From assembly GCF_007097485.1 (NCBI RefSeq), contig NZ_VKDE01000014.1, positions 1 to 64,000 of the forward strand: DNA of 64,000 nt, read 5' to 3'. Every line of letters begins with the position of its first letter. Position 1 is the stretch's first letter. Under the pieces are notes generated by a model, which was not told where the DNA came from, made no database searches, and worked only from the letters and a program-made list of their open reading frames with translations. Below are positions 51,091 to 55,475 of this stretch, piece by piece. The DNA is from Carboxylicivirga sp. M1479. GTDB lineage: Bacteria; Bacteroidota; Bacteroidia; Bacteroidales; Marinilabiliaceae. The translations under genes were made by a program, and so were the position numbers.

Positions 51091-51546
51091 TTATATTACC
51101 TCAAGGTGCTCTTCATTGGTAATTTTCTCGCAATAATTACACTTAAGTGCCAATGGTTGTTTTTCAACTAATGAGAATTTAGTTACCATTTCCTCATTAT
51201 TAGTAATACACTTAGGGTTAAAACACTTTACAATGCCCACAACCTCATCTGGTAATTCAACAACCTTTTTGTCTACCACTTGATAGTCCTCAATAATATT
51301 AAGCTTGGCAAATGGAGCTACCAAAGCAATTTTATTGATCTCATCATCGGCAAAAAACTTTTTAGCAACTTTAATAATAGCCTTGTGACCTTGTTGCTTA
51401 CTTTTTAAGTTAGTACCAAAAGTTATTTGATTCTCAATTTTATCCAGCCCTAAAATAGAGATTACTTTAAATAAGTGTGTTGCTGGTATATGGTCGATTA
51501 CTGTACCATTTTTTATTGCTCTTACGCTTAATTCTTTCTTTGTCAT
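51091..51546 (-). CDS. pyrI: Aspartate carbamoyltransferase regulatory chain
   Basis: A 151-residue regulatory subunit that binds CTP/ATP and, with PyrB, forms the ATCase holoenzyme. N-terminal nucleotide domain: VRAIKNGTVIDHIPATHLFKVISILGL. The C-terminal zinc domain has the four-cysteine pattern CFNPKCITN and LKCNYCEK. It starts 24 bases after the pyrB stop, so pyrBI is one operon. The allosteric holoenzyme with PyrI implies feedback control by CTP in addition to the attenuator found upstream of pyrB. Confidence 0.96.
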   Translation of the reverse strand: MTKKELSVRAIKNGTVIDHIPATHLFKVISILGLDKIENQITFGTNLKSKQQGHKAIIKVAKKFFADDEINKIALVAPFAKLNIIEDYQVVDKKVVELPDEVVGIVKCFNPKCITNNEEMVTKFSLVEKQPLALKCNYCEKITNEEHLEVI

Positions 51547-51570: not shown

Positions 51571-52485
51571 TTACTTCAATCCTAAAATAGACGCCATAAT
51601 GGCCATACGGGCATAAACACCATTTTCTGCCTGTTCAAAATAGTAGGCTTTAGGGTTCGCATCCACATCGGTGTGAATTTCGTTTACACGTGGCAGTGGA
51701 TGAAGAATACGTAAATTATCCTTCGTATTATCTAACATTGAATTACGTAATACATATACGTTCTTCACTTTTTCGTACTCGATAGGATCTGAGAAACGCT
51801 CACGCTGAACACGTGTCATGTAAAGAATATCTGATTCTTCAATAATATCGGTAAACTCAAGGTGCTCGTAATATTTAATCCCTTGCTTGTCAAGGAATAA
51901 CTTGTACTCATCAGGCATCTTTAACGAGTCTGGTGAGATAAAGTTAAACGTAGGGTTAAATTGCGACATAGCCATTAATAAAGAATGTACGGTACGACCA
52001 TATTTTAAGTCTCCCACAAGAAAGATATTCAAGTTCTCAAGGGTTCCTTGTGTTTTATAAATTGAATACAAGTCCAACAGTGTTTGTGTTGGGTGTTGAT
52101 TAGCTCCATCGCCAGCATTAATAACTGGTACATCAGATACTTCAGAGGCGTAACGCGCTGAACCTTCTAATGGATGACGCATCACAATCAAATCGCTATA
52201 GTTACTTACCATTTTAATGGTATCGTTTAACGACTCTCCTTTGGATGTAGATGAAGACGATGAATCGGTAAAACCAATTATACCACCACCTAAACGGTTA
52301 ATGGCCGTTTCAAAACTAAGGCGTGTGCGTGTTGAAGGCTCAAAAAACAAACTTGACACTACTTTACCGTCTAATAACTTCTGATTTGGGTTAGCTTCAA
52401 ATTCTGCTGCCAACTCCACAATGCGTAAGATTTCTTCTTTGGTGAAATCACTGATGGACACTAAACTTTTGTTCTTCATTTGCAT
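51571..52485 (-). CDS. pyrB: Aspartate carbamoyltransferase catalytic chain
   Basis: A 304-residue enzyme for the committed step of pyrimidine synthesis: carbamoyl phosphate plus aspartate to carbamoyl-aspartate. Carbamoyl-phosphate motif [12 protein letters not shown] (48-59), then [51 protein letters not shown], and [10 protein letters not shown] with the aspartate site. Length is normal. The ATG at 52485 is two bases after the stop of an 86-codon leader frame; a second ATG (codon 3) is an alternative. PyrI follows. Confidence 0.97.
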
Positions 52486-52487
52486 AA

Positions 52488-52748
52488 CTATTTACTGTGA
52501 GAATGCTCCCACGTTATTTGGTTCGGATTACAAATTATTTTGGATAGCAACTGGTGTATGCTAGAAAACAGCACAAAAAAAAGACCTGAAATAAAAATCA
52601 GGCCTTCTTTAATATATCTAAAACTAATAAGTTGCTCAACGCGAATACGATTGATTGAAAAAGAAAAAAAACGGTTTATTAAACCATCATTTTCCGGATG
52701 ATTGTGTGACTTTCGTCGGTGTAAATATTGATCAATCTGATGTCTCAT
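52488..52748 (-). CDS. pyrL-like leader peptide in the pyrBI attenuator
   Basis: An 86-codon frame beginning at ATG 52748, about 6 bases after the predicted transcription start, and ending with TAG at 52488, two bases before the pyrB ATG. The frame passes through a U-rich tract (encoding NRFFSFS, 52671-52658) and then through the terminator hairpin (encoding [11 protein letters not shown]). As in E. coli pyrL, a ribosome following RNA polymerase closely would disrupt the terminator, whereas with abundant UTP the polymerase would outrun it. The peptide itself ([10 protein letters not shown]...) shows no known domain. A longer frame starting from a TTG at 52760 would begin before the transcript, so I reject it. 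Confidence 0.72.
52575..52606 (-). terminator. pyrBI attenuator (intrinsic terminator within the leader)
   Basis: Minus-strand stem AAGGCCTGA (52606-52598) with TCAGGTCTT (52589-52581), one G-U pair, eight-base loop, then a T run to 52575. It lies 90 bases upstream of pyrB and inside the leader frame. Confidence 0.85.
52658..52685 (-). promoter_or_regulatory. Predicted UTP-sensitive pause site of the pyr leader
   Basis: A small hairpin GGTTT-AAT-AAACC (52685-52673) is followed by TTTTTTTTCTTTTT (52671-52658). The U-rich tract is about 50 bases before the attenuator. In enterobacterial pyrBI a similar U-tract slows RNA polymerase when UTP is low. The role here is inferred from position and composition. 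Confidence 0.6.
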
Positions 52749-52757
52749 TCCGGAGTT

Positions 52758-52788
52758 CAAAGATAGGTAATTTTCATGTTATAAAACA
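52758..52788 (-). promoter_or_regulatory. Promoter of the pyr leader / pyrBI
   Basis: Minus-strand TTG (about 52789-52787), 21 bases, TATCTTTG (52765..52758), a perfect -7 box. The start would be near 52752, six bases or fewer before the leader ATG, a nearly leaderless arrangement. Confidence 0.7.
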
Positions 52789-52892
52789 ACCTTTCTTTCA
52801 TGTTAATTTTACATCAACTTCTCCAAACAAGCTATTACCTACTAATAATAAGACTTTTAGAAAACATCTTTTAATAAGCGATCAAATGATTT

Positions 52893-53927: not shown

Positions 53928-53966
53928 AAAACGGATGTCATCGCTTGGAGCGATGACATCCGTTTT
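53928..53966. repeat. Palindromic repeat copy A
   Basis: A 16-bp perfect inverted repeat (AAAACGGATGTCATCG 53928-53943 with its complement 53951-53966) around CTTGGAG. Same core, GATGTCATCG-7 nt-CGATGACATC, as the copies at 54906 and 55444. Confidence 0.85.
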
Positions 53967-54905: not shown

Positions 54906-54940
54906 TACTGATGTCATCGTTTAGAGCGATGACATCAGTA
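54906..54940. repeat. Palindromic repeat copy B
   Basis: 14-bp perfect inverted repeat (TACTGATGTCATCG 54906-54919 with its complement 54927-54940) around TTTAGAG. It lies one base after the ybaK-like gene and belongs to the family of copies A and C. Confidence 0.85.
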
Positions 54941-55424: not shown

Positions 55425-55443
55425 AGAACTTTGTTTATTCACT

Positions 55444-55470
55444 GATGTCATCGCTTAAAGCGATGACATC
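55444..55470. repeat. Palindromic repeat copy C
   Basis: GATGTCATCG (55444-55453), CTTAAAG, CGATGACATC (55461-55470), with the loop itself partly complementary (CTT/AAG). It lies five bases past the stop of the gene ending at 55476. Confidence 0.85.
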
Positions 55471-55475
55471 ATTTG

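Follow-up and report, generated by a model that had tools for sequence, protein, structure and literature searches.

The DNA upstream of pyrB in Carboxylicivirga sp. M1479 raises the question of whether a long open frame, which runs through a terminator and ends beside the gene, is the leader of an attenuator that controls the pyrBI operon. The window, the whole 64,000 nucleotide stretch of contig NZ_VKDE01000014.1 that was analysed, carries the operon on its minus strand. The aspartate carbamoyltransferase catalytic chain is encoded by pyrB (51571 to 52485; Pfam OTCace_N and OTCace, 55% identical to E. coli PyrB) and the regulatory chain by pyrI (51091 to 51546; Pfam PyrI and PyrI_C). All features of the leader are on this same strand. 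Its most distal element is a TTG (52787 to 52789), which is taken here to be the Bacteroidota -33 element, followed after a 21 nt spacer by the -7 promoter box TATCTTTG (52758 to 52765), both read directly from the sequence. The box agrees with the Bacteroidota consensus TAnnTTTG, which is placed at -12 to -5 in the available part of PMC9723704. Nine bases then separate the box from an ATG at 52748, which opens a frame of 86 codons (52488 to 52748) that closes with TAG at 52490 to 52488 and is identified from the list of open reading frames and from the frame tests described below. The architecture upstream of pyrBI is confirmed as real, with its parts at the coordinates given in this report. 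The gene upstream of the leader is msrA (Pfam PMSR), on the same strand. Between frames upstream of msrA, or at their edge, there are three copies of a 33 nt near-palindrome (like ACTGATGTCATCGCTTAAAGCGATGACATCAGT), at 53931 to 53963, 54907 to 54939, and 55441 to 55473, that resemble an intergenic palindromic repeat element.

For comparison, pyrB upstream regions were taken from named relatives, being the best 80 of at least 593 pattern matches, and from further genomes of the same family and order. The 232 loci with a PyrB match gave 210 unique regions that extend 200 nt or more upstream and, from these, 195 representatives having at most 25% common 12-mers over the 300 nt upstream; L227, which has no PyrB match, and loci with less than 200 nt of upstream sequence were left out. 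There are 66 leaders with a box-to-ATG distance of 15 to 17 nt, seven of which have the ATG less than 90 nt from pyrB. The 59 with the ATG at least 90 nt upstream of pyrB comprise 44 that have a terminator at least 60 nt past the ATG and 15 in which the terminator scan used for these counts found none. The near-genus set referred to throughout is made up of 16 leaders, 14 from the window's own genus (L081 to L087 and L089 to L095) and two, L088 and L098, that belong to two further genera in the family; 12 of the 16 are among the representatives.

The distance between box and leader ATG has a single sharp peak at 17 nt, which is found in 45 of the 195 representatives, with 11 at 15 nt and 9 at 16 nt, over a background at offsets 18 to 89 that averages 2.4 and reaches 9 at most. 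The same spacing occurs once among 62 control boxes, which stand ahead of other frames in the window and at related loci, were not collapsed by orthology, and include one impossible distance (an edge error) and one or two that may be pyrB leader boxes. An earlier note on this DNA had described a promoter box followed closely by an 86-codon frame, and this holds in the window and in the peak among its relatives. Because the box occupies -12 to -5, the leader AUG begins near +6, with C at +1 (52753) and G at +3 (52751) in an initial CCG (52751 to 52753); the start sites used here are predicted by this rule and not mapped. Bacteroidota ribosomes do not rely on Shine-Dalgarno sites, which the earlier note had raised as a complication for a translated leader. 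A leader AUG at a predicted 5 nt or so from the start site may dissolve this complication. In B. thetaiotaomicron, 5' UTRs of less than 10 nt make up only about 3.7%, according to an excerpt of PMC7366714.

At the other end of the leader, two bases lie between its stop codon and the pyrB ATG at 52485, as had been noted before. This holds for that ATG, but the pyrB start that the compared relatives have in common is probably the second Met, ATG 52479, and the leader of the window ends 8 nt ahead of it. In 9 of the 16 near-genus leaders, the end of the leader and this common start overlap as ATGA.

It is the frame itself that carries most of the argument for translation. Among the 44 leaders with a terminator, the frame is open up to the terminator hairpin in 37, against a base-shuffle expectation of 2.4, a figure that, like the other shuffle and complement figures given here, is not a strict probability because the leaders are not statistically independent. 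Of the other two frames, one is open in 0 leaders and one in 3, although the shuffle is the fairer control, since frame +1 is often closed immediately by ATGA at the start. The open leaders are all 12 of the near-genus set and 25 of the 32 others; the seven that close before the hairpin are L042, L065, L073, L097, L100, L110, and L186. Through the hairpin the frame is open in 32 of 44. Downstream of the hairpin, the frame was followed as far as 25 nt before pyrB in the 19 segments that measure 30 nt or more. It stays open in 17 of these, all 12 from the near-genus set and 5 of the 7 others, against 4.3 expected and 2 and 5 in the other frames. The hairpin is read in one frame (GLFF) in all 16 near-genus leaders, and the median dN/dS over near-genus pairs rises from 0.61 upstream of the hairpin to 0.97 downstream. 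Taken together, the common frame and these ratios suggest that it is the passage of a ribosome, rather than the sequence of the peptide, that seems to be kept. The open frames and the 17 nt peak indicate that leader translation is under selection and not a product of chance, as in pyrL-like attenuation. Alignment of relatives had been proposed as a check of whether frame and terminator are conserved, and the frame is retained far outside the genus, as the leaders not belonging to the near-genus set show.

A separate observation concerns the codons of the leaders. The arginine codons CGA, AGA, and AGG are commoner in 37 leaders (for example 52748 to 52612) than in pyrB, CGA accounting for 38 of 125 arginine codons in the leaders and 46 of 440 in pyrB. 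These might slow the ribosome.

The terminator within the frame (52575 to 52610) consists of a 13-pair hairpin and 8 U, located by folding and by scans. A 41 nt stretch containing it folds at -16.3 kcal/mol (z -6.4), and none of 200 shuffles is equally stable; the whole 182 nt leader has a z of -2.95. The minus-strand terminator at this locus was not listed by a generic scan, but was detected by two dedicated scans. The intrinsic terminator that the earlier note had placed inside the leader frame is therefore borne out. Among relatives its position and architecture are constant and its sequence is lineage-specific, with stems such as CCTG/CAGG, CCAACA/TGTTGG, and GCTGACA/TGTCGG. When the closest upstream frames of 41 leaders were clustered, 17 clusters resulted, some few perhaps not being genes, and the terminator therefore accompanies pyrB and not any single neighbour.

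Two other groups of leaders have features of their own at this position. In L106, L108, and L114, from another genus of the family, the leaders are longer (95 to 120 codons) and read RSFFC, which resembles the GAFFCP at the E. coli pyrL terminator; one terminator scan found terminators in L106 and L108, while another found none in L106 or L114. A short leader peptide like MxWRExTYNPLxxRHF is conserved in L034 (a Barnesiella MAG), L186, L191, and L199, ending close to or within the terminator.

Between the start of the frame and the terminator is a U tract of 14 nt (8 U, C, 5 U; 52658 to 52671), read directly, and preceding it a possible pause hairpin (52671 to 52687) found by folding. Both had been proposed in the earlier note, and both stand in the window. 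The hairpin can be folded, a 41 nt stretch with it having -10.8 kcal/mol and 3 of 200 shuffles being as stable, but it is not conserved as a unit. It has 7 pairs in L081 and L082, 6 in L083, and 5 in L085 and L086, so that 5 of the 16 near-genus leaders have at least 5 pairs at its place; the other 11 fold differently. A run of at least 4 T starting at ATG+74 to +81 is present in 13 of the 16 near-genus leaders and absent in 3, the 8 and 5 T of the window being the extreme. Over 37 leaders, however, a discrete U tract does not stand out clearly from shuffled sequences: the best 12 nt T count is 8.73, against 8.32 in dinucleotide shuffles, and 25 of the 37 lie above expectation. A more general feature is that leaders begin U-poor and shift to U-rich. 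Compared with the remaining sequence before the hairpin, the 54 nt that follow the ATG have a lower T content in 33 of 36 leaders (p 5e-9), and in 21 of 24 when the near-genus set is excluded (p 2e-5). The mean T rise in pyrB itself is 0.005 (17 of 26 positive). The shift is no hallmark of pyrL, since the E. coli leader shows no rise in T along its length (0.31 and 0.30).

These features suggest that the pyrBI operon is probably controlled by a ribosome-dependent transcription attenuator, with the leader translated across the terminator. RNA polymerase would start about 5 nt ahead of the leader AUG, and a ribosome would bind to the 5' end as it emerges and begin to translate the leader, this early loading at an AUG so near the 5' end replacing a Shine-Dalgarno site. 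With UTP scarce, the polymerase would slow in the U-rich part, the ribosome would close up and cover the terminator, and transcription would read through into pyrBI. With ample UTP, the polymerase would outrun the ribosome, the terminator would fold, and transcription would stop. A leader ribosome that passes would stop translating at the pyrB start or directly beside it, and may aid translation of pyrB. The comparison of relatives shows the spacing of box and AUG, the open frame before and beyond the hairpin, the position of the terminator, and the U-poor to U-rich shift; in this model we infer the actual start site, translation, pausing, and pyrimidine response, and likewise that UTP or CTP is what is sensed. 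Against it stand the U tract and pause hairpin, which do not hold up as general features, the level T content of E. coli pyrL, the leaders that close before the terminator or have none by the scan, and the scarcity of the leader outside the family. The stem over the AUG at the 5' end of the RNA, which is considered below, could also hinder translation of the leader.

The order of parts had been likened to that of E. coli pyrL, and a reading of the E. coli sequence by script agrees. In this control, U5CUU is at ATG+60, the U8 of the terminator is at +107, and the stop codon is 3 nt before pyrB. The two loci share the same operon, including PyrI as well as the similar PyrB, and in both a leader frame that stops next to pyrB encloses a hairpin, a U tract, and a terminator. 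The Salmonella pyrBI leader likewise has a hairpin, a U tract, and a terminator in a frame that ends by pyrB. There are also clear differences. The frame here has 86 codons and pyrL has 44; the AUG here is about 5 nt from the predicted start, whereas that of pyrL is behind GGGAGG; and the window has 47 nt between U tract and terminator hairpin, as well as a conserved 5'-terminal stem. A search for Pfam families with the window leader and two relatives found none at E up to 1, so that PF08052, the PyrL peptide profile, misses the leader here; in the control it matched E. coli pyrL with 117 bits. By analogy the leader looks to work like pyrL, but kinship to it is not supported, because the profile detects the E. 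coli peptide and not the one here.

At E. coli pyrE the translated upstream gene is rph, whereas here there is a dedicated leader frame. UTP-dependent pausing and attenuation are described for pyrE in part of PMC7818426 and are proposed for the present locus by analogy. For E. coli pyrBI, suppression of the terminator by the leader ribosome and relief of attenuation when UTP is short are set out in excerpts of three sources (PMC5021804, PMC4824070, PMC7818426).

The first nucleotides of the RNA were missed by the earlier note. A YYG initial sequence and a 5'-terminal stem suggest a second layer of control. In the stem, UCCGGA, a bulged A, and UGA (52745 to 52754), overlapping the leader AUG, face the 3' strand UCAUCCGGA (52693 to 52701), as identified by folding and alignment; on folding, the start of the RNA pairs with a stretch some 50 nt downstream, and the AUG with CAU. 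Within the stem is a small hairpin, GACGAAAGTC (52708 to 52717), which comes from folding and is weakly supported, other relatives forming a hairpin in a different register. The 96 nt stretch that contains the 5' stem has an ordinary energy (z -1.2). Alignment A1 has 14 rows, 13 from the window's own genus and L088, with L086 excluded as a near-duplicate of L085 and L098 because it needed gaps. In it, 95.2% of the cells of the stem are paired. Since five of the nine pairs are invariant and there is one compensatory change, the near-genus set alone proves little for the stem.

It is possible, if doubtful, that choice of the start site is the main sensor, in the manner of pyrC and pyrD, and gates the attenuator. 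With ample CTP or UTP, transcription would start at the +1 pyrimidine, the stem would form at or over the AUG, the leader would go untranslated, and the terminator would fold. With few pyrimidines, transcription would start at the +3 purine, the outer pairs would be lost, the leader would be translated, and the terminator would be suppressed. In E. coli and Salmonella pyrC and pyrD, a low GTP/CTP ratio leads to a start at C and to a hairpin that blocks ribosome binding, according to part of PMC7818426. The predicted RNA here likewise begins with pyrimidines and then a purine, and its initial stretch pairs downstream, but the start codon involved is that of a leader frame with a terminator and not that of an enzyme gene, and the switching is hypothetical.

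The initial sequence speaks for such switching. Of 31 leaders that do not belong to the near-genus set, 23 have YYG at offsets 12 to 14 and 29 have YYR, against 4 and 13 of the 62 control boxes. In the window and the near-genus set, the first transcribed nucleotides, as predicted, lie in the 5' stem. A perfect complement of offsets 12 to 16 is present within 60 nt in 14 of the 31 leaders with 17 nt spacing outside the near-genus set, realised through eight different 5-mers; the shuffle mean is 4.35, the largest of 300 runs is 10, and the swap expectation is 3.8. When the test is moved upstream to offsets 8 to 12, the excess is gone (6 against 6.85 expected), and therefore the stem begins at the predicted RNA start. 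In the 12 near-genus leaders, a start at +3 rather than +1 changes the ensemble energy from -13.8 to -10.0 kcal/mol, about 3.8 weaker, and lowers AUG pairing from 0.72 to 0.50.

Other results stand against it. Leaders with 15 nt spacing have no clear excess of complements (3 of 11, against 1.9 expected). In 14 leaders outside the near-genus set, AUG pairing is not lowered by a +3 start (0.57 to 0.61); in the same leaders it is the three bases before the AUG that open, from 0.83 to 0.53. Besides the single compensatory change, the covariation score of the near-genus stem is reached by 59 of 500 shuffles. AUG pairing over the 59 leaders is 0.52, against 0.54 with shuffled tails, while in the 12 near-genus leaders it is 0.72 against 0.50. 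In a duplex-energy swap test, the median rank is 0.22 against 0.43 in controls, but at its strictest, a rank of 0.05 or less, 9 of 59 leaders qualify and so do 20 of 150 controls. A second duplex-energy test gave p 5e-7 for all 59 leaders and 3e-4 for the 47 that are not near-genus. The energy-based tests thus give moderate support to the 5' stem, which outside the near-genus set retains its complementarity and varies in sequence and loop length.

A combined arrangement for pyrBI of the Bacteroidales, in which two nucleotide sensors act in series on one short RNA, start choice setting the AUG stem and U-dependent polymerase speed then setting the terminator, is on the evidence rather unlikely. 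The layer of the 5' stem and that of the attenuator would push in the same direction.

Stalling of the ribosome at particular codons, picking an alternative hairpin so that amino acids are sensed, is very unlikely. The leader frames of trp and his type attenuators end before the terminator, whereas here the frame traverses it in most leaders. Peptides that were inspected have no common codon run, and the peptide varies between lineages, even the near-genus median dN/dS being 0.61. The codon-usage data were weighed along with the passage of the frame in rejecting this explanation, although Gln, Phe, Glu, His, and Arg are over-represented in the leaders by 1.5 to 1.9 fold relative to base shuffles. 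Leader-peptide attenuation of amino-acid operons has been proposed in a flavobacterium, Flavobacterium psychrophilum, in part of PMC9723704. The likeness lies in a ribosome-dependent attenuation proposed in the same phylum; the operons there are amino-acid operons, and frames crossing the terminator do not appear in the available part of that description.

Equally improbable is the binding of a protein or ligand to the leader RNA, as by PyrR or in a riboswitch, with the frame secondary. The conserved 5' structure in the near-genus set would fit with this, but outside that set the sequence and loop length of the 5' stem are lost while the frame is kept open. PyrR-type attenuation is unlikely here, with no PyrR above the cut-off in the organism's own genome, where the best match has 28 bits against a cut-off of 138. 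In the window no Rfam family attains its gathering score, the two matches (E 0.84 and 0.98) being far below.

Also very unlikely is the remaining explanation, that the terminator ends the transcript of the upstream gene, with a pyrB promoter further downstream and the open frame incidental: the neighbour is on the same strand in the window (msrA) and in 32 of the 38 neighbours inspected, but the promoter box precedes the terminator at a fixed distance from the ATG, no TAnnTTTG was seen on reading the stretch from the window's terminator to pyrB, open frames greatly exceed the chance expectation, and a terminator left over from an upstream gene was rejected on the 17 clusters of upstream frames.

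The distribution of the leader was counted as frames of at least 28 codons at loci with enough upstream sequence, in groups that overlap in organisms. On this basis it is present at 40 of 64 family loci, the window's own included, at 17 of 78 named loci, and at 1 of 29 and 11 of 59 order-level loci, the named set (the best 80 of at least 593 matches) and the best-hit sets being biased to close relatives. The named carriers are Marinifilum, Labilibaculum, Ancylomarina, Anaerophaga, Gaoshiqia, Maribellus, Breznakibacter, a Barnesiella MAG, and a Butyricimonas MAG. A terminator scan of the Marinifilum, Labilibaculum, and Ancylomarina leaders found none. In L006, a long-looped hairpin like CCAACA/TGTTGG followed by a T run is readable by eye. 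Five Bacteroides loci (L061, L072, L076, L077, and L080) have no such leader and carry a TAnnTTTA-like box some 35 to 50 nt before pyrB. In the class-level sample, PyrB was found at E 1e-60 in 7 of 159 genomes, five in the order and two outside it. Among plasmid records, 204 of 72,556 have a PyrB match at E 1e-5, and the leader DNA has no match in these records.

Other pyrimidine genes were also inspected, and no leader with a box 17 nt before an ATG was seen at 11 carA or 11 pyrE loci. At four of the pyrE loci (L252, L255, L256, and L263), a box, TACATTTG, starts 12 nt before the pyrE ATG, a spacing that would make the transcript fully leaderless. At L237, L239, L240, and L242 to L245, a box is found 58 to 109 nt before the first carA ATG and is followed, at 32 to 34 nt, by a short frame starting MHL, which is kept between genus-level genomes and is possibly regulatory.

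Among the open-access papers listed, none describes a pyrB attenuator in Bacteroidota by title or start of abstract, which is weak evidence of novelty because subscription papers are mostly outside it. A pyrL-like attenuator together with a pyrC/pyrD-like 5' end would be a new combination. If the attenuator model is true, attenuation of pyrBI requires that a ribosome closely trails RNA polymerase in Bacteroidota, and such close following is directly testable in a small reporter with the leader. The position of the AUG, about 5 nt from the start, suggests early ribosome loading that does not need a ribosome-binding site. If the 5' stem acts through choice of the start site, then one RNA unites two sensors known from separate E. 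coli genes, and the mechanisms of pyrC/pyrD and of pyrBI would be joined in a phylum that does not rely on Shine-Dalgarno sites.
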